From NCBI RefSeq assembly GCF_002009425.1, contig NZ_CP019936.1, positions 186,001 to 250,000 of the forward strand: a stretch of 64,000 bases of DNA. Reading direction: 5' to 3'. Under the pieces are notes generated by a model that was not told the DNA's origin, searched no databases, and was given only the letters and a program-made list of their open reading frames with translations. The DNA comes from Thiosocius teredinicola (GTDB lineage Bacteria; Pseudomonadota; Gammaproteobacteria; Chromatiales; Chromatiaceae). Both the position numbers and the translations under genes were made by a program. Within the stretch, counting starts at the first letter, position 1, and each line of letters opens with the position of its first letter. Below, piece after piece: positions 14,054-59,500 of this stretch.

Positions 14054-16063
14054 TTAGAGCATTGGCACAATCAGCAGCGCCACAATATTGATGATCTTAA
14101 TCAAAGGGTTCACGGCTGGTCCGGCGGTGTCCTTGTAGGGGTCGCCGACGGTGTCGCCGGTCACGGCTGCTTTGTGAGCATCCGATCCCTTGCCGCCATG
14201 GTTGCCGTCTTCGATGTATTTCTTGGCGTTGTCCCATGCGCCGCCGCCGGTGGTCATCGAGATCGCGACGAACAGGCCGGTGACGATGGTGCCGATCAAG
14301 AGGCCGCCCAGTGCCTTCGGGCCGAGCAGCAGGCCGACCGCCACCGGTACCGCAATCGGCAGCAGGGATGGGATGATCATTTCCTTGATCGCGGCCTTGG
14401 TCAGCATGTCGACTGCGCGGCCATAGTCGGGCTTTTCCGAGTGATCCATGATGCCCGGCTTTTCCTTGAACTGACGGCGCACCTCGTTGACGATGCCGCC
14501 CGCCGCGCGGCCGACCGCTTCCATCGCCATCGAACCGAACAGATAAGGAACAAGGCCGCCGATGAATAGGCCGATGATCACCATGTGGTCCGACAGGTCG
14601 AAGGCCATGCTGATGCCTTCTTTCTCCAGCGAGTGGGTGTAGTCCGAGAACAGCACCAGTGCGGCGAGGCCGGCCGAACCGATCGCATAACCCTTGGTGA
14701 CCGCCTTGGTGGTGTTGCCGACGGCATCCAGCGGGTCGGTGATGTTGCGGATCTTCTCGTCCAACTCGGCCATCTCGGCAATGCCGCCGGCGTTATCGGT
14801 GATCGGTCCGTAGGCGTCGAGCGCGACGATGATGCCGGTCATCGACAGCATGGAGGTCGCCGCGACCGCAATGCCGTACAGACCGGCCAGATCGTAGGCC
14901 GCCCAGATCGACGCGCAAACCGCCAGCACCGGCAGTGCGGTCGATTTCATCGATACCGCGAGACCGGCAATCACGTTGGTGCCGTCGCCGGTGGTCGATG
15001 CCGAGGCGATGTGGCGCACCGGGCTGTACTCGGTCGCGGTGTAGTACTCGGTGATGACGACCATGGCCGCGGTCAGCGCCAGGCCGATCAGGGCGGCGAG
15101 ATACAGGTCGAATGACGAGAACTGTTCGTTGCCGCTCATCATCGAGTCGGTCACGAAGTAGAAGCCGATCGCGGCGATCACGCCGGACACGATCAGGCCC
15201 TTATACAGCGCAATCATAATCTTGGTATCGCCGGCTTTCGCCTTGACGAAAAATGTGCCGACAACCGACGCGACGATCGACACCCCGCCCAGAATCAGTG
15301 GGTACATGATGGCCTCGGCCGAACCGAGGATCAGCCCGCCGAGCAACATGGTGGCGACCACCGTGACGGCGTAGGTTTCGAACAGGTCGGCCGCCATGCC
15401 GGCGCAGTCACCCACATTGTCGCCGACGTTGTCGGCAATCACGGCCGGGTTGCGCGGATCATCTTCGGGGATGCCTGCTTCGACCTTGCCGACGATGTCG
15501 GCACCGACATCGGCGCCCTTGGTGAAGATGCCGCCGCCGAGACGGGCGAAGATTGAGATCAGTGAGCCGCCGAATGCCAGCCCGACCAGCGGATGCAGCG
15601 GGTCTTCGACCCCCAGCCAGACGAGGATGCCGTAGTAGCCGGCAACGCCCAGCAGCCCCAGGCCGACGACCAGCAGGCCGGTGATCGCACCGCCGCGGAA
15701 TGCGATCTGCAGGGCAGCGTTGATGCCGTGCTCGGCGGCCTTTGCGGTGCGCACGTTGGACCTGACCGAGATATTCATGCCGATGTAGCCGGCGAGCCCT
15801 GAGAAAACCGCACCGATCAGAAAACCGACCGCCGTGGCCCAACCGAGGGTGATGAACAGGACGATGGTGAGAATCACCCCGACGATACCGATCGTGGTGT
15901 ACTGGCGATTGAGGTAGGCCGAGGCGCCTTCCTGCACTGCCTGGGCGATCTCCAGCATCCGTTCGCTTCCGCTGGGCTGGCTCAATATCCATTTGACGGA
16001 AACGAAGCCATAACCGATCGCCAACAGCGAGCAGGCGAGCGCGAACCACAGTGCAGTGTCCAT
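14054..16063 (-). CDS. hppA: Membrane-bound pyrophosphatase, K+-independent type (H+-pumping expected)
   Basis: The 669-aa integral membrane enzyme couples PPi hydrolysis to cation pumping across the inner membrane. The ATG at 16063 follows AAGGGGA. PPi/Mg-binding blocks are present: [47 protein letters not shown] and, near the end, [15 protein letters not shown]. The segment [10 protein letters not shown] places Lys453 and Thr456 at the two positions that identify K+-independent membrane PPases (Lys/Thr instead of Ala/Gly), a class known to pump protons. A gating Glu is in DLFETYA (about 229). It is divergent from a second, different membrane PPase. Confidence 0.96.
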
Positions 16064-16376
16064 CAACGTATCCCCTTTATGAAAACCTCGTTATTTTGGA
16101 AATTTATAATTTTTATTGGTAATTCCCGTGACGGATTGTTCGCTTTCGGAACCAAATTACCAACCAAATTGTTCGAATGGCGCGATTAACAGTGCTGCTA
16201 GCAGGGTAATGGGCGCCGTGGTGACGGGTTTTCGGGCGGCGCTTGCAGTCGCGGGGGCGGTTCTTACAATGGATAACTATTAGAAAATTTTGGGGTAGCG
16301 CAAGACACTTGCCATGTAAAAGTCGATATGCGTTTCGCCAGAAACACAAAACAATAACACCGGAGGAGTTAGTTTA
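16064..16376. promoter_or_regulatory. Divergent promoter region between the two membrane pyrophosphatase genes
   Basis: This gene-free spacer of 313 bp is AT-richer than its surroundings near the minus-strand gene (TTATAATTTTTATT around 16105). For the plus-strand gene a candidate promoter is TTGCAG (16243-16248), 16 bp, TACAAT (16265-16270), with transcription from about 16277. GGAGGAG at 16362-16368 is a strong ribosome-binding site for the plus gene. No convincing operator was recognised; shared regulation of the pair is only inferred from the geometry. Confidence 0.5.
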
Positions 16377-18377
16377 ATGATGGGCACTTACCTGCCGCCG
16401 ATCCTTGGCATCATCGGTCTGCTTTCCGCTTATTACATCTATCGGCTTATCCATGAGCACCCTGCGGGGGAGGAGAAGGTGACCGGCATCGGCAACCAGA
16501 TCCACCTCGGCGCGATGGTGTTCATGAAGCGCGAATTCAAGACGCTCGGCATCTTCGGCGTGATCGTTCTCGCGTTCCTGCTCATCTTTCTCGGTGTGAA
16601 AACCTCAATCGCCTTCGTCGCCGGCGCGCTGGCCTCGGGTCTGGCCGGTTACTTCGGCATGTTTACCGCCACCCACGCCAACGTCCGCACCACGACGGCC
16701 GCCAACCGCGAAGGGCCGGCCGCGGCCCTGTCGGTGGCCTTTTTCGGCGGTTCGGTCATGGGCCTGTTGGTCGCCTCGATGGGTTTGCTCGGGCTCGGCA
16801 CGCTGTACCTGGTGTTTGGCGGTGACCCGGACACGGCACATGCGATTCACGGCTTCGGCATGGGCGCCTCAATGGTTGCCCTGTTCTCGCGTGTCGGCGG
16901 CGGTATCTATACGAAAAGCGCAGACGTCGGTGCGGACCTGGTCGGCAAGGTCGAGGCCGGTATTCCGGAAGACGATCCGCGCAACCCGGGCGTGATCGCC
17001 GACAACGTGGGCGACAATGTGGGCGACGTCGCCGGGATGGGATCGGACATTTTCGAATCCTACTGCGGCTCGATGATCGCCACGATCGCCATCGCCTCGA
17101 CCATGACGCTGGTTGCGGCCGACGCCTTGGGCGGCAGGGAGATGTTGATGGGATTGCCGCTGCATCTGGCGTCCATCGGGCTGTTGTGTTCGATCGCCGG
17201 CATCCTGTTGGTGCGCAAGTCGTCCGACAAGGCGCCGGAAAAGGCGCTGCGCACGGGCACGCTCGGCGCGTCGGCGCTGTTCATCGTGGTTGCCTACCTG
17301 CTGATCGATGCGATGGGTGGCTCGGTGGCCATCTGGGGCGCGGTGGTTTCCGGTGCGGTCGGTGGCGTGATCATCGGCCTGGTCACCGAGTACTACACCG
17401 GCGGTGCCCCGGTCCGGCGGATCGCCAAGTCGGGTGAAACCGGCTCGGCCACGGTCATGATTACCGGCCTGGCGGTCGGCATGCAGTCGGTCGTTATTCC
17501 GGTCATCACGATCTGCGCGATCATCTTCGTGTCCAACTGGTTGGTTGGCCTTTACGGCGTGGGTATTGCCGCTGTCGGCATGCTGGCGACCGTCGGTATC
17601 ACCATGGCGATCGACGCCTACGGCCCGGTCGCCGACAACGCCGGCGGCATCGCCGAAATGGCGGGCTTGGGTGAAGAAACCCGCAAGATCACCGACTCGT
17701 TGGACGAACTGGGCAACACCACGGCGGCGATCGGCAAGGGCTTTGCCATCGGCGCAGCTGCCCTGGCTGCGCTGGCGATCATCACCGCATTCGTGGAAAC
17801 CGTGTCTGCCCGGATACCGGATTTCGCCCTCAATCTAAACGATCCCTTGGTGCTGATCGGTATGTTCGTCGGCGGGCTGCTGCCGTTTCTGATTGCTTCG
17901 ATCACGATGACTGCGGTTGGCGATGCCGCCTACGAGATGATTCACGAGATCCGTCGGCAGTTCCGCGAGATCCCCGGCCTGCTCGAAGGCACGGGCGAGC
18001 CCGATACCGCGCGCTGCGTCGATATCGCCACCAGCGCCGCGCTGCAACGCATGGTGTTGCCCGGGGCCATCGCAGTGGTCGCCCCGGTTGCGGTTGGATT
18101 CGGTGTCGGTGCCCAGGCGCTCGGCGGGATGCTCGGCGGCGCGCTGGTGTCGTGCGTGCTGTTGGCGCTGACCATGGCGAATGCCGGTGGCGCCTGGGAC
18201 AACGCCAAGAAATGGGTCGAGAAAGGCAACCTCGGCGGCAAAGGCTCTGAGGTTCACAAGGCCGCGGTGGTCGGCGATACCGTCGGCGACCCGTTCAAAG
18301 ACACCTCAGGTCCGTCGATGAACATCCTGATCAACGTCATGGCGATCGTGTCGCTGGTGATTGCGCCGTTGCTGTAA
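16377..18377 (+). CDS. Membrane-bound pyrophosphatase, K+-dependent type (Na+ or H+ pump)
   Basis: The 666-aa enzyme is a complete membrane PPase with [22 protein letters not shown] (183-204), DNVGDNVGD (209-217), [16 protein letters not shown] and [15 protein letters not shown] near the C-terminus. The diagnostic segment [10 protein letters not shown] has Ala450 and Gly453, the signature of the K+-dependent class. The gating Glu lies in DIFESYC (E227), the position used by Na+-PPases and some H+-PPases. Na+ pumping is therefore possible but not proved. Start codons at 16377 and 16380 are both served by GGAGGAG. It differs widely from the neighbouring minus-strand paralogue, so it is not a recent duplicate. 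Confidence 0.95.
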
Positions 18378-21085: not shown

Positions 21086-22342
21086 TTACAGCTCGAAGTT
21101 ATCCAGTTTGCGCGCCACGCCGGCCAGTTTGAGGGTGACGTAGTCCGGCATGCCGTTGCTCTTGTAGGGTGGATAGGCCTCGCCCTGGATCAGCGGATAC
21201 AGGTAGTCCTTGCACTTCTGCGTGATGCCATAACCGTCGTCGGAAATGAAATCGGTCGGCATCATCTTCTCGACATTGGCTACTTCGCTCAGCGGCGCCT
21301 CGCCGATCTCCCATTTGTATGGGCTGTTCGAGGTGCGCACCACGGTCGGCATGATCGAGTTTTTGCCTTCCAATGCCTTCTCGACCGCCGCCTTGCCCAG
21401 CGCGTAGGCCTGCTCGACATCCGACGCCGACGCCAGGTGACGCGCGGCGCGCTGCAGGTAGTCGGCGACCGCCCAATGGTATTTGTAGCCCAGCGCGTCC
21501 TTGATCATGTTGGCGACCACCGGTGCTGCGCCACCCAACTGGGCATGCCCGAACGAGTCGCGCGTGCCCTGCTCGGCGAGGAACTTGCCGTCCGGCCAGT
21601 GACAGCCTTCCGAGACACAGATTGTGCAGTAGCCATGCTTTTTCACATTGGCGTCGACTTTCGCCAGGAACTTGTCCTTGTCGAATTCGACTTCGGGGAA
21701 CAGCGTGACCACGGGAATGCCCTCGTCTTCAACCAGAGCGCCCGCGGCGGCGATCCAGCCGGCGTGACGACCCATGACCTCGATGACGAAGATCCTGGTC
21801 GAGGTGGCCGCCATCGAACGCACGTCGTAGCTGGCCTCCAGCGTCGATACCGCGATGTACTTGGCGACCGAACCGAAGCCCGGGCAGTTGTCGGTGATCG
21901 GCAGATCATTGTCGACCGTCTTCGGCACGTGGATCGCCTGCACCGGGTAGCCCATCTTCTCGGACAGCTGCGAGACCTTGTAGCAGGTATCTGCCGAGTC
22001 ACCGCCGCCGTTGTAGAAGAAGTAGCCGATGTTGTGCGCCTTGAAGATCTCGATCAGGCGTTCGTATTCGCGCTTGTTGTCTTCCAGGCTCTTGAGCTTG
22101 AAACGACAAGAGCCGAAACCGCCTGACGGGGTGTGTTTGAGGGCTGCGATCGCTTCGGCAGATTCCTGGCTGGTATCGATCAGGTCTTCGGTGAGTGCGC
22201 CGATGATGCCGTTGCGGCCGGCATACACATTGGCGATCTTGTCCGGGTGGGCGCGGGCGGTCTCGATAACGCCACAGGCCGAGGCATTGATAACGGCGGT
22301 GACCCCGCCGGACTGTGCGTAAAAGGCGTTTTTCGCCGTCAT
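21086..22342 (-). CDS. pfp: Pyrophosphate-dependent 6-phosphofructokinase
   Basis: The enzyme reversibly converts fructose 6-phosphate plus PPi to fructose 1,6-bisphosphate plus phosphate. It is 418 aa and begins MTAKNAFYAQSGGVTAVINA. The phosphoryl-donor loop reads NGGGDSAD (111-118) and is followed by VPKTVDNDL (139-147). The Asp before Ser (D115) and the Lys of PKT (K141) are the residues that mark PPi rather than ATP use. MGRHAGW and SEGCHW are also typical. The first Asp of the common GGDDS form is Gly here. In methylotrophs and some sulfur-oxidising symbionts such enzymes also act on sedoheptulose bisphosphate in a PPi-saving Calvin cycle; that role is inference here. Confidence 0.93.
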   Translation of the reverse strand: MTAKNAFYAQSGGVTAVINASACGVIETARAHPDKIANVYAGRNGIIGALTEDLIDTSQESAEAIAALKHTPSGGFGSCRFKLKSLEDNKREYERLIEIFKAHNIGYFFYNGGGDSADTCYKVSQLSEKMGYPVQAIHVPKTVDNDLPITDNCPGFGSVAKYIAVSTLEASYDVRSMAATSTRIFVIEVMGRHAGWIAAAGALVEDEGIPVVTLFPEVEFDKDKFLAKVDANVKKHGYCTICVSEGCHWPDGKFLAEQGTRDSFGHAQLGGAAPVVANMIKDALGYKYHWAVADYLQRAARHLASASDVEQAYALGKAAVEKALEGKNSIMPTVVRTSNSPYKWEIGEAPLSEVANVEKMMPTDFISDDGYGITQKCKDYLYPLIQGEAYPPYKSNGMPDYVTLKLAGVARKLDNFEL

Positions 22343-50422: not shown

Positions 50423-51184
50423 TCAAGCCGAGGGGTCGGTCAATCGGGTTATACGATTGGCCAGCGTGGCAAAGTCGATACCCCAACGCTGCCCGTGCCG
50501 GACAAGGTCGCCCGTGCTGGGCGTCGCGGGCTGCCTGCCGGCGAACGCCAAAACCAGCAGGTTGTCGTGATTCGGATTGCTCAACAGCAGAACGTTGGCA
50601 CCGAATACCTGGCGTACGCGGTACAGCGATTCACTGATCTTCTTCTCGTCGTCCATGATCAGGTTGAGCGTCAGCGTGCCGGTTGCCGTCAGGTGCGAGC
50701 GACAGCCGTTGAGAAAATCGAACTCGGTGGTCCAGTTGGGCGTGGTCTGGTTTTCCTCGAGGTCGACCAGGATGTAGTCATACCGTGCATCCGAGTGCAC
50801 CAGGTGCTCGCGCACATCTTCGATCAACAACCGCCAGCGGCTGGTGGCGGGCGGAAAGTCGAAGTACTCGCGCGCCAGGCGCGCCACCGTGGGCGACAGT
50901 TCGATGGCGTCGCCCGCGACCTCCGGCGCGCGCGCATGAAACCAACGCGCAATCGCCCCGCCGCCGCAACCGGCGAGCATGGCCCGTTGCATCGGTTGGC
51001 CGAACATAAGGTGGGCGAGCATGGATTGGTTGACCGGATTCGGCAGTACCGCCGGGTCGTGGATGTGGATCTCCGACTGCAGAATAATGTCGTCGAACCA
51101 CAGGCTGCGGCGATCGCCTTCTTCCCAGATCTCGAGGTGGGTGTCTGCATTTTCCTCACGGTAGATGCAGCGGGCCGATGTCAT
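50423..51184 (-). CDS. Spermidine-synthase-like class I methyltransferase-fold protein
   Basis: The ATG at 51184 overlaps the mgtE stop (ATGA) and gives 253 aa. A much longer frame to 51670 lies inside mgtE and is rejected. The nucleotide-binding loop AMLAGCGGGAIARWF and YDYILVDLEEN follow the spermidine synthase (SpeE-like) Rossmann fold. The polyamine-specific acidic residues cannot be confirmed, so it may be a SpeE-like protein without aminopropyl transfer. Translational coupling to the Mg transporter is unusual. It converges with ybeL, with only 12 bases between the stop codons. Confidence 0.75.
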   Translation of the reverse strand: MTSARCIYREENADTHLEIWEEGDRRSLWFDDIILQSEIHIHDPAVLPNPVNQSMLAHLMFGQPMQRAMLAGCGGGAIARWFHARAPEVAGDAIELSPTVARLAREYFDFPPATSRWRLLIEDVREHLVHSDARYDYILVDLEENQTTPNWTTEFDFLNGCRSHLTATGTLTLNLIMDDEKKISESLYRVRQVFGANVLLLSNPNHDNLLVLAFAGRQPATPSTGDLVRHGQRWGIDFATLANRITRLTDPSA

Positions 51185-52539
51185 AACAGAAACAGCGACG
51201 CCAGCCCGAGGAATGACAGGAAGCCGACGACGTCGGTCACCGTGGTCAGCAACACCGAGCCGGCCAGCGCCGGATCGATCCCCACTTTCTCCAGCAGGAG
51301 GGGTAACAGTGAGCCGGTAACGGCCGCGAACAGTAGGTTGATCGTGATCGCGACGCCGATCAGAACGGCGATTTCGCTGTTCTGAAACCAAACCCCTGCA
51401 ATCACCGCGACCACCACCGCCCAGATCAGGCTGTTGAGCGTACCTACGGCCAGTTCTTTGAGTAGCAGGGCGCGCGCATTGCTTCTGCTGAGCTGGCCGA
51501 GCGCGATACCGCGGATCGCGAGCGTCAATGTCTGACTGCCGGCGATGCCGCCCATGCTGGCGACGATCGGCATCAACACGGCCAAGGCAACGATCTTGGA
51601 CAAGGTCTCTTCGAACTGGCCGATCACCCATGAGGCGAGAAACGCGGTCGCCAGGTTGATGCCGAGCCACACGGCACGCCGCCGGGTGCTGGCCAGCACC
51701 GGCGCGAACATGTCTTCCTCTTCGGACAGACCGGCGCGCCCCATGAACTGGTGCTCGCCTTCTTCACGGATAACGTCGATGACGTCGTCGACGGTGATAC
51801 GGCCCAGCAACCGGCCGTCTTCATTGATGACCGGCGCTGACAGAATGTCGTGTGCCTCGAAGCGGCGGGCCACTTCGGAACTCGACATGTCCGCGCGCAG
51901 CGCCTGCATGTCGAGACTCATCGCCTCGGCGACGGTGTCCTCCGGGTCGCGTGAGACCAGTTGGGACAATTGCAGCACGCCGAGATATTCATCATCGCGA
52001 TTGACGACGAACAGTTTGTCGGTGTCGCGTGGTACGCCGTCGCCGAGGCGACGCAGGTAGCGTAAAACCACGTCCAACGTAACCTCGGGCCTGACGGTCA
52101 CCGTATCGGTATTCATCAGGCCGCCGGCCGTGTCTTCGGAAAAAGACAACACGGCTTCGAGGCGATGGCGGCGCTGGTCGTCGAGCGCGTTCATGACCTC
52201 AGCGGTGATCGCCGACGGCATCTGCTGGACGAGGTCGGCCAGGTCGTCGAGGTCGAGGTTGGCCGTCGCTGCCAGCAGCTCTTCGGGATCCATGTGGCGG
52301 ATCAGCGAAGCGCGCACCTCGTCGGTAACCAATAGCAGGATCTGGCCGTCGTGTTCTTCGTCGACCAGGTTCCAGATGATCTCGCGTTCCGCCGGCGGCA
52401 GGGCTTCGAGCAGGTGAGCGATCTCTGCCGGCGCGAGACTGCGCAGCAGACGGGCGGCCTCGCGTACGGCACCGGATGCGAGGATATCCTGCAACCTCAG
52501 CAGGCGGGAATCTTCGCTGGTTTCCGCTTGGGCGCTCAT
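51181..52539 (-). CDS. mgtE: Magnesium transporter MgtE
   Basis: The 452-aa protein has the full MgtE order: an N-terminal superhelical domain (LLRSLAPAEIAHLLEALPPAEREIIW, EELLAATANLDLDDLADLVQQMP), two CBS domains (about 140-260, with VINEDGRLLGRITVDDVIDVI), and five membrane helices from about residue 290. The pore segment MPIVASMGGIAGSQTLTLAIRGIALGQL is conserved. It is an inner-membrane Mg2+ channel gated by cytosolic Mg2+. The 130-bp spacer to the ptsI stop has no gene. Confidence 0.96.
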   Translation of the reverse strand: MSAQAETSEDSRLLRLQDILASGAVREAARLLRSLAPAEIAHLLEALPPAEREIIWNLVDEEHDGQILLLVTDEVRASLIRHMDPEELLAATANLDLDDLADLVQQMPSAITAEVMNALDDQRRHRLEAVLSFSEDTAGGLMNTDTVTVRPEVTLDVVLRYLRRLGDGVPRDTDKLFVVNRDDEYLGVLQLSQLVSRDPEDTVAEAMSLDMQALRADMSSSEVARRFEAHDILSAPVINEDGRLLGRITVDDVIDVIREEGEHQFMGRAGLSEEEDMFAPVLASTRRRAVWLGINLATAFLASWVIGQFEETLSKIVALAVLMPIVASMGGIAGSQTLTLAIRGIALGQLSRSNARALLLKELAVGTLNSLIWAVVVAVIAGVWFQNSEIAVLIGVAITINLLFAAVTGSLLPLLLEKVGIDPALAGSVLLTTVTDVVGFLSFLGLASLFLL

Positions 52540-52671: not shown

Positions 52672-54402
52672 TCAGCCGTTCAGCAATTGGGTCAATACGT
52701 CGATGCCGTCGACTTGATCGAGGTTGTCGAACAGCCGGCAAACGCGCTCGGTGAGATCGCCGGCGTTGAGGTTCTGCACGCGGTCACGCGCATCCAGCAA
52801 GGCGGCCGGCTGCATGCTGAATTCACGCAGCCCCATGCCGACCAGCAGCGGGATATAACGCGCATCGCTGGCCATCTCACCGCACATGCTGACCGGCACG
52901 CCGGCTTTCTGGCCGGCGGTGATTACGGCGGCGATCAGGCGCAGCACGGCGGGATGCGCCGGATCGTAGAGGTAGTTGAGTTCGTCATCGACGCGGTCGA
53001 TCGCCAGCGTGTATTGGATCAGGTCGTTGGTGCCGATCGACAGAAAATCGAGGCGTTCGGCAAAGGCGCGCGCGTGCAGTGCCGCCGCGGGGACTTCGAT
53101 CATGCCGCCGATGGGGATATCGCGATCGTAGGCGACGCCTTCGGTATCGAGGTGATGCATCGCCTGGGCGATCAGCCGCTCGGCCTGCTCGATCTCCCAG
53201 ATGCTTGTGAGCATGGGCAGCAGGATGCGCACCGGGCCGAACGCGGAAGCCCGCAGAATTGCGCGAATCTGCGGGTAGAACAGCTCGGGCTCTTTCAGGC
53301 ACAAGCGGATGGCACGCAATCCGAGCGCCGGGTTCGACGACACGGGTGTCAGCGGCGGGCCGCCCGGCTGCTTGTCCGCACCCAGGTCGAGTGTGCGAAT
53401 GGTGACCGGTTTGCCTTGCAAGCCGTCGACCACCGCGCGATAGGCCTCGAAGTGCTCTTCCTCGCTCGGCGGCGTCTGCCGGTTCATGTACAAGAACTCG
53501 GTGCGATACAGGCCGACACCCTGCGCGCCGTTGCTCTGTGCGGCGCCTACATCGTCGGCCAGTTCGATGTTCGCGAAAAGCTGCAATACAACGCCGTCAT
53601 CGGTCACCGTCGCCTCGGTGCTGCGTCGACGCAACTCATCGATACGCGACAGATCGGCGAGACGTCGGTTTTCGAAATGCGCGAGCATATCGGCGTCGCA
53701 CTCGGCCAGCACGATGCCGCTGTGCGCATCGAGCACCAGGCGTTCGCCATGCTGCAGACAGCTGGTGGCACCACGGGTGCCGACCACCGCCGGGATGCCG
53801 AGGCTGCGTGCCAGGATCGCGGTGTGCGAGGTCGGCCCGCCATAGTCGGTCACGAATCCGGCGATCCCCTGATTCTTCATCAGGATGACATCCGCCGGCG
53901 CCAGGTCTTCGGCGAGTACGATCTGATCTTTGAGGTCGTCGAACTGTTCGCCATGGTGTTCGAGCAGAATCGCCATGATCCGATTCACGACATGATCGAG
54001 ATCGTCGCAGCGTGTGCGCAGATAGGTGTCCTCCATCTTCTCGAACACCCGCACCAGCGCATCACGATGTTGCTGCAATGCCCATTCTGCACTCAGGCCT
54101 TCATTGCGGATCAGCTGGATAGGCTGCGATGACAGCGCCTTGTCTTCGAGCATCAGCAGGTGGGTATCGATGAACTCGGCGATCTCCGACGGCGTCTCGC
54201 GCGGGATCTGCGCCTTGACGTCGCGCAGTTGCTGGCCGGCGACCTCGATAGCCTGTTCGAAGCGTCTTACCTCGGTGTCGACCCGCTCGGTCGCAACCCA
54301 GCTGGGCGTAATGCAGACAGGGCCGCGGCATAGCAGAAAGGCGTCGCCGACGGCGATGTTGGCGACCGCGCCGACCCCGATGCCGGCACAGGCAATCGTC
54401 AT
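52672..54402 (-). CDS. ptsI: Phosphoenolpyruvate-protein phosphotransferase (PTS enzyme I)
   Basis: Enzyme I takes phosphate from PEP and passes it to HPr. The 576-aa protein has the phospho-His in GGPTSHTAILARSLGIPAVVG (H193), the PEP-binding LYRTEFLYM and DLGADKQPGG, and the catalytic SMCGEMASD. No GAF domain is present, so it is EI and not EI-Ntr. The start overlaps the HPr stop as ATGA. No sugar-specific IIB/IIC subunit is nearby, which points to a regulatory PTS. Confidence 0.96.
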   Translation of the reverse strand: MTIACAGIGVGAVANIAVGDAFLLCRGPVCITPSWVATERVDTEVRRFEQAIEVAGQQLRDVKAQIPRETPSEIAEFIDTHLLMLEDKALSSQPIQLIRNEGLSAEWALQQHRDALVRVFEKMEDTYLRTRCDDLDHVVNRIMAILLEHHGEQFDDLKDQIVLAEDLAPADVILMKNQGIAGFVTDYGGPTSHTAILARSLGIPAVVGTRGATSCLQHGERLVLDAHSGIVLAECDADMLAHFENRRLADLSRIDELRRRSTEATVTDDGVVLQLFANIELADDVGAAQSNGAQGVGLYRTEFLYMNRQTPPSEEEHFEAYRAVVDGLQGKPVTIRTLDLGADKQPGGPPLTPVSSNPALGLRAIRLCLKEPELFYPQIRAILRASAFGPVRILLPMLTSIWEIEQAERLIAQAMHHLDTEGVAYDRDIPIGGMIEVPAAALHARAFAERLDFLSIGTNDLIQYTLAIDRVDDELNYLYDPAHPAVLRLIAAVITAGQKAGVPVSMCGEMASDARYIPLLVGMGLREFSMQPAALLDARDRVQNLNAGDLTERVCRLFDNLDQVDGIDVLTQLLNG

Positions 54403-54668
54403 TCGGCCTCACCGAATTTGTTGTCTATCAGCTCGACCAAGGCCTGCATGGCTTCGTTTTCCCCCTCGCCGTTGACGTTGATCTGCAGCACCGTACCGCA
54501 ACTTGCTGCCAGCATCATGACGCCCATGATGCTTTTGCCGTTCACTCGTTGGCCGTTCTTCTCGATCATGACCTCGGCGCCGAAACCGTTGGCGATGTTC
54601 ACCAACTTGGCTGCCGCACGAGCGTGAAGGCCGAGTTTGTTGATGATGGTGATTTCGCGCGAAAGCAT
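54399..54668 (-). CDS. ptsH: Phosphocarrier protein HPr
   Basis: The ATG at 54668 gives 89 aa. His15 (KLGLHARAA), the EI phosphorylation site, and Ser46 (NGKSIMGV), the HPr kinase site, are both at their standard positions. A start one codon earlier (TTG) is less likely. It is coupled to the EIIA gene by TGATG and to ptsI by ATGA. Together with hprK a few genes upstream this allows dual phosphorylation control. Confidence 0.96.
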   Translation of the reverse strand: MLSREITIINKLGLHARAAAKLVNIANGFGAEVMIEKNGQRVNGKSIMGVMMLAASCGTVLQINVNGEGENEAMQALVELIDNKFGEAE

Positions 54669-55090
54669 CAAAGCGATTCCTGTGACTTGTTATGCGTTTT
54701 TACCGGGCAGCTCATGATGCCGCGCGTTCCGCCCTCTGCCGCCTTGCTGGTCAGCGTGTCCAGATTGTCCATCGGATAGTTGAAAACCCGCACCAGCATC
54801 GGCAGGTTGAGGCCGGACAGCACGGCCGCGTCCGACTGGTCGCAAGCGATCCGCTGGGCAATGTTGTGCGGCGTCGCGCCGTAAATATCGGTCAGCACCA
54901 GCACCCCGGAGCCATGATTGAGCACCTTCAGCATCGCCTTGGCGCGTTCGCACATCGGTTCGAGCGCGGCGTCCGGCGGCACCTCGAGGCATTTGATCGG
55001 TACGGTCGTGCGGCCGATGATGCGCGTCGCGATGTGCAGGATCGCGGTGCCGACCCCGGGGTGCGTAATCAGCATGACCCCGACGCTCAT
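54668..55090 (-). CDS. PTS EIIA component of the mannose family
   Basis: The ATG at 55090 overlaps the rapZ stop (ATGA) and gives 140 aa beginning MSVGVMLITHPGVGTAILHIA. H10 in LITHPGVG is the expected phosphorylation site. TDIYGATPHNIAQ is also typical of the EIIA-Man fold. Without a partner IIB/IIC/IID in the window it is probably a regulatory phosphate acceptor from HPr. Its targets are unknown. A longer frame to 55360 is inside rapZ. Confidence 0.9.
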   Translation of the reverse strand: MSVGVMLITHPGVGTAILHIATRIIGRTTVPIKCLEVPPDAALEPMCERAKAMLKVLNHGSGVLVLTDIYGATPHNIAQRIACDQSDAAVLSGLNLPMLVRVFNYPMDNLDTLTSKAAEGGTRGIMSCPVKTHNKSQESL

Positions 55091-55974
55091 GGCAGTTCCC
55101 GATGGCTTGTAACGACCTGGCGACCCTGAGAAGTGAGGAACTTGGCGATGTTCTCGATCAGGAAGACAGAGCGATGCTGTCCACCGGTGCAGCCGACCGC
55201 AACGGTCAGATAGCTGCGGCCTTCGCGTTCGAAACAGGGAATCCAGTGGGTCAGGAAGTCGCAGATGTGGCTGAGCATGCTCTTGACCTGCAGGTCGTCG
55301 CCGAGAAACGCAGCGACTTCGGCATCTTTGCCGGTGAGTGGCCGCAGGTCCGGATGCCAATGCGGGTTGGGCAGGCAGCGCGCGTCGAACACGAAATCGG
55401 CATTGCGCGGCACACCGTGTTTGAAGCCGAACGACTGCAGCATGATCGACATCTCGCCGCTTTCGCGTTCGGCAACGCGCGCACGAATCAATTCGCGCAG
55501 CTCGTGTAGCGTGGTGCGCGAGGTGTCGATCTTCAGGCGTGCCAGATCGAGCAACGGTTCGAGCAGCTCGCGTTCGAGCTTGATCGCCTGCTCGAGGGTG
55601 GTACCGTCGTCGGTCAACGGGTGTCGCCGGCGGGTTTCACTGAAGCGCTGAATCAGGATCGCATCTTCGGCATCGAGGAATACCACCTCGCAGTCGACGC
55701 CGTGATCGCGCAGGCGCTTGATCATGCCGGGCAGGCGGTCGAGCTCGGTGCCTGGATTGCGCGCGTCGATGCCGATGGCAAACGGGCTGCGCGCCTTGGT
55801 CGGGTTGACGGTGATGTCGCGCACCAAGGCGTCGAACAGGCTGACCGGCAGGTTGTCGATGCAGTAGTAACCGACGTCTTCCAGAACGTGCAAGGCGATA
55901 CTCTTGCCGGAGCCGGAAAGGCCGGTTACCAGAATGACGCTGGGCGTATCGTTTTGCGCAGGATCGGTCGACAT
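55087..55974 (-). CDS. rapZ: RNase adapter protein RapZ
   Basis: RapZ is a nucleotide-binding adapter that in E. coli delivers the small RNA GlmZ to RNase E and senses glucosamine 6-phosphate. The 295-aa protein has Walker A GLSGSGKS (18-25), the family VGYYCIDNLP block, and the C-terminal AVGCTGGQHRSVFL block. It sits in the rpoN-hpf-ptsN neighbourhood, as in E. coli, here after hprK. GlmZ and GlmY were not searched for outside this window. Confidence 0.95.
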   Translation of the reverse strand: MSTDPAQNDTPSVILVTGLSGSGKSIALHVLEDVGYYCIDNLPVSLFDALVRDITVNPTKARSPFAIGIDARNPGTELDRLPGMIKRLRDHGVDCEVVFLDAEDAILIQRFSETRRRHPLTDDGTTLEQAIKLERELLEPLLDLARLKIDTSRTTLHELRELIRARVAERESGEMSIMLQSFGFKHGVPRNADFVFDARCLPNPHWHPDLRPLTGKDAEVAAFLGDDLQVKSMLSHICDFLTHWIPCFEREGRSYLTVAVGCTGGQHRSVFLIENIAKFLTSQGRQVVTSHRELP

Positions 55975-56069
55975 GGGCTGATTATATGTGCAGCGGTCGA
56001 GACAAACAGCGGCGCGTTGGTTTTCCCGCGCTTATTTCCCGGTTTGACCCGGTGACGCGCCGCGGCCGC

Positions 56070-57014
56070 TCACGATTGGTCGAGGATCGCCTGCTGCTGG
56101 CGTTCGATCAGCACCTCGGTGGCATCGTAGCCCTTCAAGCGCAGCAGGTGGTTGCGCACTGCCGATTCAACCAGCACGGCGAGGTTGCGGCCGGGGGCCA
56201 CCGGCACGGTGACCTGGGGAATCTGCACGCCGAGTACATCGCGGATCGCATGCGCCCCCGATAAACGGTCCATGCCGGAGATCTGGTCCGCCGACATGCG
56301 CTTGAGGTGCACGATCAGGCGCAGATACTTGGTGCGCTTGATTGAGCTGTCGCCGAACATCTGGCGAATATTCAGGATGCCCAGGCCGCGTACCTCGAGA
56401 AACTCGCGCAGGATCGGCGGGCAGGTGCCGCTGACGATGTCCGGCGCGATCCGGGTGAACTCGGGTGCGTCGTCGGCCACCAGGCGGCTGCCGCGGGTGA
56501 TCAGGTCGAGCGCCAGTTCGCTCTTGCCGACTGCGGGGTCGCCGGTCAGCAGCACGCCCATGCCGAGTACCTCGAGAAACACGCCATGCAGCGTGGTCTT
56601 CTCCGACAGGAACAGCGAAGCGTAATACTGCAGGTTGTCCAGGACCTGGCTGTCGCCGAGCGGCGAGCGCATCAGTGCCACACCCGCCTCGTCGGCCATG
56701 GCCGCCAGTTCCGGAAGACCTTCCACGCGGTCGACCAGCATGACCAGGGCCGGTCGCTCGGCGAACAACTGTTGCAGTGCCTGCTGCCGGTTCGGCGAAT
56801 ACAGGCTGTTGAGATAGCGTTCTTCAGCCGGTCCGATGACCTGGACGCGGTTGGGGTGGATGTAGTTCAGCGGGCCGGCGATGATGCCGGTGCCGGCGTC
56901 GCTGCTCGACGACAGAATGGTGCTGTCGGCGCCGGAGTGGCCGGCCAGCCATTCGAGTTGCAATCGTTCCTGGAGTGCTTCGTAAAGGTCGCGGACGCGA
57001 ATGCTATGCGGCAT
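56070..57014 (-). CDS. hprK: HPr kinase/phosphorylase
   Basis: HPrK phosphorylates Ser46 of HPr using ATP or PPi and reverses the reaction with phosphate, making PPi. The 314-aa enzyme has the family LHGV block (H143), Walker A GDPAVGKS (158-165), ALDLITRGSRLVADD and the capping block LEVRGLGILNIRQMFG. It overlaps ptsN by 11 bp. The combination with EI, HPr and EIIA on the same strand suggests one regulatory unit. The 95-bp spacer to rapZ has no gene. Confidence 0.96.
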   Translation of the reverse strand: MPHSIRVRDLYEALQERLQLEWLAGHSGADSTILSSSSDAGTGIIAGPLNYIHPNRVQVIGPAEERYLNSLYSPNRQQALQQLFAERPALVMLVDRVEGLPELAAMADEAGVALMRSPLGDSQVLDNLQYYASLFLSEKTTLHGVFLEVLGMGVLLTGDPAVGKSELALDLITRGSRLVADDAPEFTRIAPDIVSGTCPPILREFLEVRGLGILNIRQMFGDSSIKRTKYLRLIVHLKRMSADQISGMDRLSGAHAIRDVLGVQIPQVTVPVAPGRNLAVLVESAVRNHLLRLKGYDATEVLIERQQQAILDQS

Positions 57015-57468
57015 GGGAGCTGGAGTGGCCGGTCAGGATAGCGATCGCTTCCTTCGCCTCTGCCTCGCGCAGTCTCGCGCGTAGCTCTTCTTCGTTGAAC
57101 ATCGCCGCCAGGCGGGCGAGCAGCTGAAGGTGTTCTTCGTTGGCGTCTTCCGGTACCAGCAGGGCGAACACCAGGTCGACCGGCTGGCCGTCCAGCGCAT
57201 CGAATTCGATAGGGGTTTCCAGGCGCAGGAATGCGCCGCGCGTGTCGCTGATGCCGGGCATGCGGGCGTGCGGCAAGGCCACACCTCCCGCAAGCCCGGT
57301 GCTGCCCAGGCGCTCACGTTCGAGCAGGCGTTCGAAAATCTGCTCCGCCGTCGGCTCGTCGGTATCCCGTGCGAGCAGGCGTGCCGCCTGCTCGAGGATG
57401 CGTTTTTTGCTCGATGCCGGGTCAGCGATGCTGACGCTGCCCGACGTGAGGATGCCTTTAGGTAGCAT
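57004..57468 (-). CDS. ptsN: PTS IIA-like nitrogen-regulatory protein PtsN
   Basis: The 154-aa protein has the phospho-His in GGVALPHARMPG (H67) and the EIIA-Ntr pattern of helices afterwards. In E. coli PtsN controls potassium transport (TrkA, KdpD) and phosphate starvation responses. TrkA is also encoded in this window, though far away. Start chosen at 57468. It lies between hpf and hprK. Confidence 0.94.
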   Translation of the reverse strand: MLPKGILTSGSVSIADPASSKKRILEQAARLLARDTDEPTAEQIFERLLERERLGSTGLAGGVALPHARMPGISDTRGAFLRLETPIEFDALDGQPVDLVFALLVPEDANEEHLQLLARLAAMFNEEELRARLREAEAKEAIAILTGHSSSHAA

Positions 57469-57485: not shown

Positions 57486-57815
57486 TCATCCCGCCGCTTC
57501 GACGGACGCATCTTTGTGTCCGTTGCCACGGTGGCTCTTGATCTTTTCTTTGTGGCGGATGACCTGACGATCCAGTTTGTCGACAAGCGAGTCGATGGCA
57601 GCGTACATGTCTTCGTGAGTGGAATCCGCAAAGACGTCGGCACCGGCGATATGCACGGTGGCTTCGGCCTTCTTGGTGAGTTTTTCAACACTCAGGATGA
57701 CGTGTACGTTGGTGACGTGGTCGAAGTGACGCTCGAGTCGGGCGATCTTCTCGTCAACGTAGGCACGCATCGAGTCGGTGATGTCGACATGGTGACCGGT
57801 CAGGTTGACTTGCAT
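57486..57815 (-). CDS. hpf: Ribosome hibernation promoting factor (short form)
   Basis: Hpf binds the 30S decoding region and promotes 100S dimer formation in stationary phase. The 109-aa length is that of short HPF. MQVNLTGHHVDITDSMRAYVDEKIARLERHFDHV and SVEKLTKKAEATVHIAG match the family. AAGGAGA precedes the ATG. It follows rpoN by 31 bp, the order conserved in E. coli. Confidence 0.96.
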   Translation of the reverse strand: MQVNLTGHHVDITDSMRAYVDEKIARLERHFDHVTNVHVILSVEKLTKKAEATVHIAGADVFADSTHEDMYAAIDSLVDKLDRQVIRHKEKIKSHRGNGHKDASVEAAG

Positions 57816-57846: not shown

Positions 57847-59349
57847 TCAAGCTAAGCGCTTGCGTTCGTTCGACGGCGGGATCGCCATCGATTCACGATA
57901 CTTGGCAACAGTGCGGCGGGCGACGTTGATCCCCTGATCAGCGAGGATGGCCGCGATCTTGTTGTCGGAAAGGGGTTTGTTGGGTTTCTCCGCACCGATC
58001 AGCTTTTTGATCAGCGCGCGAATGGCCGTGGCCGAGGCCTCGCCACCGCTGGCGGTGCTCACGTGGCTGGAGAAGAAGTATTTGAACTCGAAGGTGCCCC
58101 GTGGGGTGTGCATGTATTTCTGGGTGGTTACCCGTGAAATGGTTGATTCATGCATCTCCAACGCCTCGGCGATATCCCGCAACACGAGCGGTTTCATGGC
58201 CTCTTCTCCATATTCGAAGAAATTGCGTTGAAAGTCGACTATCCGTGTCGCAACTCGCAGCAGCGTATCGTTGCGGCTCTGCAGGCTCTTGATGAACCAG
58301 CGGGCCTCCTGCAGGTGGTTTTTCAGCGTGACGTTGTCGGCGCTGTTGTCCGCCCGCCTGATCATGTTCGCATACTCGGCGTTGACGCGTAACCGGGGGG
58401 CTGCATCCGGGTTGAGTTCGACCCGCCACTGGTTGTTACGTTTGTACACGAACACATCGGGCTCGACGTAGGTCGGCGGCTGGCTGGCAACGCTGGTACC
58501 CGGGCGCGGGTTGAGCGAGCGGATCAGGTGGATGACCGACATCAGGTCGTCGCTCTCCAGCTTGAGCTTGCGCTTCATCTGCGCCTCGTCCTGCGCCGCG
58601 AGCAGGTCGAAGTGCTCGCCGATCAGGAACAGCGCGCGCTCGCGCCACTCGAAGTCTTCGGGCAGCTGGCGCAGTTGAATGAACAGGCATTCACGCAGGT
58701 CGCGTGCCGCAATGCCAGGCGGATCAAAGGCCTGCACGCGGTGCAGCACGGCCTCGACCTCTTCGGTCTCGATATCCGGATCATCCATGCTGGTGACGAT
58801 GTCTTCGATCGGCGTGGTCAGGTAGCCGTCTTCGGAGATGCCGTCGATGATCGCCTCGGCAATCGCCAGGTCGGTCGGGCTGAACGGCGTCAGCTGCATC
58901 TGCCAGATCAGGTGGTCCTGCAGAGATTCGCCGCTGCTTTGTTGATTCAGGAAGTCCTGGCTTTCGTCGCTGCTGGCGGCGCTGCCGGGAGAGGCGGGTG
59001 TGACGCTGTCGTAGATGTCATCCCACACGGTATCGACCGGCAGTTCATCCGGCATGGCCTCGGATTCGATCTTGACCTCGCTTTCGTTGTTCGGGTCGTT
59101 GCGCGAATCGTCGTTGTTGTTCTGGGTGCTTGCATTCTCACCGTCGTTCTCGCTCTTTTTGCGCTCGCTGTCGGCTTCGTCGCGACGCGTACCTTCCTCT
59201 TCGGTTTCGAGCATCAGGTTGGAGTCGAGGGCTTCCTGGATCTCCTGTTTGAGATCGAGCGTCGACAGCTGCAGCAGCTTGATTGCCTGCTGCAGTTGCG
59301 GCGTCATCGTCAGGTGTTGACCCAGTCGAAGCTGGATGGTGGGCTTCAT
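57847..59349 (-). CDS. rpoN: RNA polymerase sigma-54 factor
   Basis: The ATG at 59349 ([29 protein letters not shown]) is the standard start and gives 500 aa; the longer frame to 59394 lacks support. Region I (Gln-rich N-terminus), an acidic region II (about 55-130) and the core-binding domain are present. The RpoN box is conserved near the C-terminus in the segment ending [23 protein letters not shown]. It directs transcription of nitrogen, flagellar and other genes with enhancer-binding activators. It follows lptB after a 151-bp spacer with no gene. Confidence 0.97.
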
Positions 59350-59500
59350 TCGGCTACTATCTGGTATGAAATTTGATCGGACTCCCAATGCCATTCTAGC
59401 GCAACTGCGCGCGAGTCGAACCCGCTGTGCAGACCGGCGTTCCCGACTTTGGCGAGGCGCAGTATTTGGCGATGTTGCTGCGCAGCAATCATACGCCTAA

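Follow-up and report, generated by a model that had tools for sequence, protein, structure and literature searches.

A gene cluster for a predicted regulatory phosphotransferase system with HPr kinase beside rpoN in Thiosocius teredinicola

What would a bacterium do with a phosphotransferase system (PTS) in which no sugar permease is found? The question is raised by a gene cluster at positions 52672-57468 of a 64,000-nucleotide (nt) stretch of the Thiosocius teredinicola genome (NCBI RefSeq assembly GCF_002009425.1, contig NZ_CP019936.1, positions 186,001 to 250,000; hereafter the window), in which a sequence-only reading had placed Enzyme I (EI), HPr, a mannose-type EIIA, RapZ, HPr(Ser) kinase/phosphorylase (HprK) and PtsN. 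These coordinates proved exact, and all the proteins match their Pfam families over the cut-off. From its genes, the cluster is predicted, with a probability of roughly 0.87, to encode a full version of the regulatory PTS that lies beside rpoN in Proteobacteria, a relay by which the cell probably senses how it stands for energy and carbon. The earlier proposal of a permease-free regulatory PTS that includes HprK therefore stands, but the system is not unusual, as the same cluster has already been published with the same interpretation.

The cluster is part of a series of eight co-directional genes on the minus strand, running from 59394 down to 52672 in the order rpoN-hpf-ptsN-hprK-rapZ-EIIA(Man)-HPr-EI and followed by mgtE; EI, HPr and soluble EIIAs are thus encoded beside rpoN, as in an rpoN-linked regulatory PTS of the EI-R type. 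The ptsI gene (52672-54402) encodes an EI of this regulatory (EI-R) type with 576 amino acids (aa) and His193 (PF02896, 5e-106; PF05524; PF00391), and ptsH (54399-54668) an HPr of 89 aa with His15, Ser46 and Gly49 (PF00381, 3.4e-30). The mannose-family EIIA, or EIIA(Man) (54668-55090, 140 aa; PF03610, 4.6e-17), carries His10 and has no fused IIB, whereas the product of ptsN (57004-57468, 154 aa; TIGR01419 nitro_reg_IIA over the cut-off; PF00359, 1e-32) is an EIIA(Ntr) with a phosphorylatable His67 in ALPHAR. Between them lie rapZ (55087-55974), for an RNA-binding adaptor and P-loop protein of 295 aa (PF03668 and PF22740 over the cut-off), and hprK (56070-57014), for a full-length HprK of 314 aa (TIGR00679 hpr-ser over the cut-off; PF07475, 1e-60; PF02603, 4e-18). 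Upstream are hpf (57486-57815), encoding a ribosome hibernation factor of 109 aa (PF02482, 1.5e-29), and rpoN (57847-59394), encoding sigma-54 of 515 aa (Pfam Sigma54_DBD, CBD and AID over the cut-off).

Three ATGA or TGATG junctions that had been suggested are real: rapZ and EIIA(Man) overlap by ATGA (55087-55090), EIIA(Man) and HPr meet in TGATG with an overlap of 1 nt (54668), and HPr and EI overlap by ATGA (54399-54402). A fourth overlap, of 11 nt between ptsN and hprK (57004-57014), had been missed. The 4-nt overlap of rapZ with EIIA(Man) is kept in 16/16 relative loci that have both genes, and that of HPr with EI in 16 of 20 (start codons in the relatives being picked by a heuristic), so that these overlaps are not a matter of chance. 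A scan of the window for sigma-54 promoters gave 28 matches where 33 were expected by chance, none of them useful.

The cluster itself encodes neither IIB nor IIC. A search of the whole genome for these components had been named as the test that could overturn a regulatory role, and it came out negative: PF02378 (PTS_EIIC), PF02302 (PTS_IIB), PF03609 (EII-Sor) and PF03611 (EIIC-GAT), each searched with positive controls (E. coli and other well-known genomes), gave no match in T. teredinicola and 37 relatives, these four families being the extent of the search. The genome, a single contig of 4.79 Mb, has one HPr and one PF00359 (PTS_EIIA_2, EIIA(Ntr)-type) protein. The IIB and IIC that mark a sugar-transport PTS were therefore not found among the four families, and a regulatory rather than a transport PTS is well supported.

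The residues expected of such a relay are conserved. His15 of HPr lies in GLHARAA and Ser46 in VNGKSIMGVMML, with the letters NGKSIMGVMML around the serine. In the relative loci, the catalytic histidine is kept in EI (20/20), HPr (20/20), EIIA(Man) (His10, 17/17) and PtsN (19/19). HprK has both the N- and the C-terminal domain of its family, a P-loop (GDPAVGKS) and the signature LEVRGLGILNIRQMFG, and the solved structures closest to it in sequence are all HprKs (1ko7, 1jb1/1kkl, 2qmh, 1knx and 3tqf). The catalytic positions, H143, G163-K164-S165, D181-D182 and E207-R209, are invariant among 17 aligned HprKs.

The gene order is also widely conserved. Among named hprK loci (the best 80 of 578, which lean to close relatives), 66 had enough flanking sequence; rpoN was present in all 66, hpf in 65, rapZ in 62, HPr in 61, ptsN in 60, EIIA(Man) in 59 and EI in 51. 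The closest named record among those 80 is a Chromatiales metagenome bin with 84% HprK identity. The gene mgtE (51181-52539, minus strand; PF01769 and PF03448), 132 nt downstream of ptsI, is a loosely associated neighbour; it lies near hprK in 43 of the same 66 loci, so that a Mg2+ transporter is found persistently behind a Mg2+-dependent relay.

Does HprK act on HPr in this group of bacteria? In a sample of 274 genomes of the class (Gammaproteobacteria), 172 have an HprK over the cut-off, and HPr is present in 168 of these 172 versus 39 of the 102 that have no HprK. Residue 49 of HPr co-varies with HprK: among the matches listed, which covered 88 of the 168 genomes with both proteins and 20 of the 39 with HPr alone, Gly49 was found in 85/88 and 12/20 genomes, respectively (Fisher p 4e-5). 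Counted by family, an HPr with another residue at this position occurs in 2 of 69 HprK-positive versus 7 of 14 HprK-negative families (p 3e-5). A first version of the comparison was biased, since it contained mainly the best-scoring HPrs of HprK-positive genomes (48/48 with Gly); therefore, 40 lower-ranked HPrs were added, upon which three exceptions appeared. One genome, G273, without a hit in the first HPr set, was added later with looser settings. HPr was found in 72 of the best 80 (of 578) named hprK loci, and all 72 have Gly49. Likewise, among 20 relative loci, KSIMG is read in all 18 that contain hprK, and in the two remaining ones, from genomes with no hprK anywhere (G011 and G018), HPr reads KSIME and KSIMS. 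These two genomes are sisters in the EI tree described below (98/89), and the loss of hprK may thus have been a single event. The Gly49 pattern supports, but does not prove, the use of Ser46 as a target of HprK. A literature search found no report of a relation between Gly49 and HprK, which does not prove its absence from print.

The branch to which these genomes belong seems to have lost genes of the cluster stepwise. A relative of theirs, G019 (locus L020), has a cluster that lacks EIIA(Man) and keeps hprK and Gly49, and in G011 (L024) and G018 (L029) EIIA(Man) and hprK are both missing and Gly49 is replaced by Glu and Ser; loss in steps within one branch of the family is the likely history. 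Short HprKs were also seen, with open frames of approx. 181-191 aa that contain the C-terminal domain only, beside the full-length form in several genomes of the class (e.g., G016, G103 and G128). Similar short forms have been described for alphaproteobacteria and Coxiella (PMC2405797).

The cluster had also been called complete, a word that is inexact, as a second EI is encoded outside the window. This protein, PtsP (753 aa, GAF and EI domains; L010:5179-7440, minus strand), lies 3.5 Mb from the cluster and is the GAF-domain EI(Ntr) of a nitrogen-type system, PTS(Ntr). It is one of four proteins of the genome with a PEP (phosphoenolpyruvate)-utiliser C domain, the others being the cluster EI, pyruvate,phosphate dikinase and PEP synthase. 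In a tree of 53 EI sequences, PtsP is placed with E. coli PtsP (support 100/100), and the cluster EI joins the Xanthomonas-type EI in a branch of 31 EI-R rows (100/99), outside of which E. coli PtsI, the only transport-type EI in the tree, falls. Both types of EI occur in 16 genomes of the tree (T. teredinicola and at least 15 relatives), a number that is not an unbiased rate, as these genomes were chosen for fetching from the PEP-utiliser search. Since the genome encodes a single HPr, PtsP and EI-R presumably both use it, and the two other dual-EI genomes covered (G023 and G036) have a single HPr as well. No published account of two EIs with one HPr was found in a literature search, which is not proof that none is in print. 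On the same strand, the PtsP gene is adjoined by one for polyphosphate kinase 2 (L010:4138-7440; C1 of the T. teredinicola genome, approx. 3.786-3.789 Mb).

From this gene content we infer the phosphotransfer steps, the effect of Ser46 phosphorylation and the targets of both EIIAs, as follows. The cluster PtsI and the distant PtsP would each move phosphate from PEP to His15 of HPr, which would then phosphorylate the two soluble proteins at which the relay ends, EIIA(Ntr) (PtsN) and EIIA(Man). Both EIIAs would act by binding other proteins, in either the phosphorylated or the free form. HprK is predicted to phosphorylate Ser46 of HPr from ATP or pyrophosphate (PPi). If it resembles known HPrs, its His15 relay would be slowed in this way, and P-Ser-HPr would become a separate signal. 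No sugar would be transported.

Several observations weigh against such an assignment, in addition to the limit of the permease search to four families. Ser46 is kept in 48/48 HPrs from HprK-positive genomes and equally in 19/19 from HprK-negative ones of the first set, and in 20/20 of all HprK-negative ones covered; Ser46 alone is thus no proof of HprK action and was rejected as a marker for it. Three HprK-positive genomes (G032, G120 and G239; HPr loci L105, L114 and L122) have Ser at position 49. The HprK matches of these three are weaker (E 1e-34 to 1e-30), and the enzyme may be altered there or have another target. EI is absent from the cluster in 15 of the 66 named loci and EIIA(Man) in 7, so that not all parts are indispensable; where EI is missing, PtsP may serve alone, as was proposed in 2008 (PMC2405797). 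Finally, three of the six genomes of the class with an EIIC over the cut-off also carry HprK, and there is no association between EIIC and HprK (p 0.67). The presence of HprK, therefore, does not exclude transport.

It might accordingly be asked whether a true sugar-transport PTS exists after all, of which the cluster would be the energy-coupling half and whose IIB and IIC would be encoded elsewhere. EI, HPr and an EIIA of the mannose family are parts of the transport type, Desulfovibrio vulgaris is reported to have a mannose-class transporter beside EI-R (PMC2405797), and the three genomes just mentioned combine HprK with EIIC. However, EIIC exceeds the cut-off in only those 6 of the 274 genomes of the class (9 have a match at E <= 0.001), and the empty searches of four permease families in T. 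teredinicola and 37 relatives, with their positive controls, largely refute the idea for these families; a transport PTS was rejected on this ground, and we regard it as very improbable. It is improbable, too, that HprK is a relic that no longer acts on HPr in what would be an ordinary PEP-only PTS(Ntr). G011 and G018 have indeed lost hprK while the rest of the cluster, except EIIA(Man), is still there, and proteobacterial HprKs are reported to be poor at dephosphorylating their P-Ser substrate (PMC2937029). Nonetheless, the P-loop and the other catalytic residues are invariant in 17 HprKs, Gly49 stays with HprK and is often changed where HprK is gone, and the Brucella HprK is an active kinase (PMC2937029).

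A further possibility, which we consider unlikely, is that HprK is driven mainly by PPi and mirrors a PPi economy governed by other enzymes encoded in the window. Genes of PPi metabolism do exist there: two for membrane pyrophosphatases (14054-16066 and 16377-18377) and, 3 kb further, one for a PPi-phosphofructokinase (21086-22342). The two adjoining pyrophosphatases are of different NCBIfam subtypes and on opposite strands, and two such pumps in one genome suggest a different ion or K+ dependence. The genome also encodes pyruvate,phosphate dikinase, and PPi is a proven donor for the Brucella HprK, which is inhibited by phosphate (Pi) and dephosphorylates poorly (PMC2937029). A membrane pyrophosphatase is found in 107 of 172 HprK-positive versus 48 of 102 HprK-negative genomes, a weak co-occurrence (p 0.017, with kinship ignored). 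On the other hand, 65 of those 172 have no membrane pyrophosphatase match, and HprK is a general enzyme that also uses ATP (PMC2937029). The link between HprK and the PPi region of the window, which had been suggested as a speculation because HprK works with PPi, does not hold as gene linkage: hprK is 40 kb from the pyrophosphatase gene in T. teredinicola and more than 400 kb away (linear coordinates) in 8/8 other single-contig genomes listed for both, and a link of this kind was rejected. One may still speculate, with little expectation of being right, that HPr, of which there is only one, forms a three-input node in a PPi-run cell. EI-R might then report PEP, PtsP might report PEP as gated by its GAF domain, and HprK, fed by PPi and restrained by Pi, might report where the PPi-phosphofructokinase reaction stands in mass-action terms, since PPi, Pi and fructose-1,6-bisphosphate are reactants of that enzyme as well as known donor or effectors of HprK. 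The two EIIAs might then carry a combined carbon, nitrogen and PPi signal.

The preferred reading, a regulatory PTS with HprK, has close precedents. The cluster is not new, as the same one, likewise permease-free, is on record in the literature both in Acidithiobacillus ferrooxidans and in Xanthomonas campestris, and an equivalent set exists in Brucella. A. ferrooxidans AFE3018-23 has the same parts (EIIA, HprK, an ATPase whose position resembles that of RapZ, a second IIA, HPr and EI), lacks IIC and was interpreted by those who described it as a regulatory cascade that involves RpoN (PMC2621215), although it belongs to a different lineage. X. campestris XC_1304-1310 shares gene order and parts, and no EIIB or EIIC was reported; mutants of that cluster have no obvious defect in sugar uptake, whereas growth and virulence are altered in the hprK mutant, and the title of the paper calls HprK a serine kinase (PMC6916182). 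Brucella melitensis also has EI, an HPr-like protein, EIIA(Ntr), EIIA(Man) and an HprK that uses ATP and PPi, with no permease, and its regulatory PTS is a working relay in vitro; unlike here, its only EI is of the GAF type, its HprK is truncated and the genes lie in other clusters (PMC2937029). The E. coli PTS(Ntr) (PtsP-NPr-PtsN) is likewise purely regulatory and has the order rpoN-hpf-ptsN-rapZ-HPr-type (PMC13104625), to which hprK, EIIA(Man) and EI-R are added here, and a single HPr stands where E. coli has distinct HPr and NPr proteins. In R. eutropha, the ptsMHI operon has regulatory effects on the storage polymer (PMC3222305).

According to Comas et al. (2008), ancestral proteobacteria had both EIs, which are both still found in G. 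sulfurreducens, and the other lineages kept only one; ptsP was lost in Xanthomonadales, and other gammaproteobacteria lost ptsI (PMC2405797). T. teredinicola, in contrast, keeps ptsP and retains the whole ancestral rpoN cluster of that study (rpoN, ptsK, the EI-R ptsI, ptsH/ptsO, ptsN and IIA(Man), with ptsP elsewhere), and it departs, together with at least 15 relatives, from the one-EI statement for gammaproteobacteria (PMC2405797). HprK, too, appears to be commoner in the class (172/274) than has been stated, namely "absent from ... most species of gamma-Proteobacteria" in the 2008 survey (PMC2405797) and "absent in most other proteobacteria" in a 2026 review (PMC13104625), although the comparison with 2008 is not like-for-like, as the class may be broader than the one surveyed then.

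The cluster is thus real and ordinary, and two modest additions can be made to what has been published: two EIs per HPr, and a Gly49 that tends to follow HprK. The idea of 2008 that the two EIs, as functional analogues, displaced one another (PMC2405797) finds a natural test in genomes with both EIs and one HPr. The frequent loss of Gly49 in the absence of hprK may provide a sequence marker by which true HprK substrates among HPrs could be told from others, and G011 and G018 emerge as natural lines of hprK loss. If the three-input view of HPr were true, the keeping of both Enzymes I would mean distinct roles rather than redundancy.

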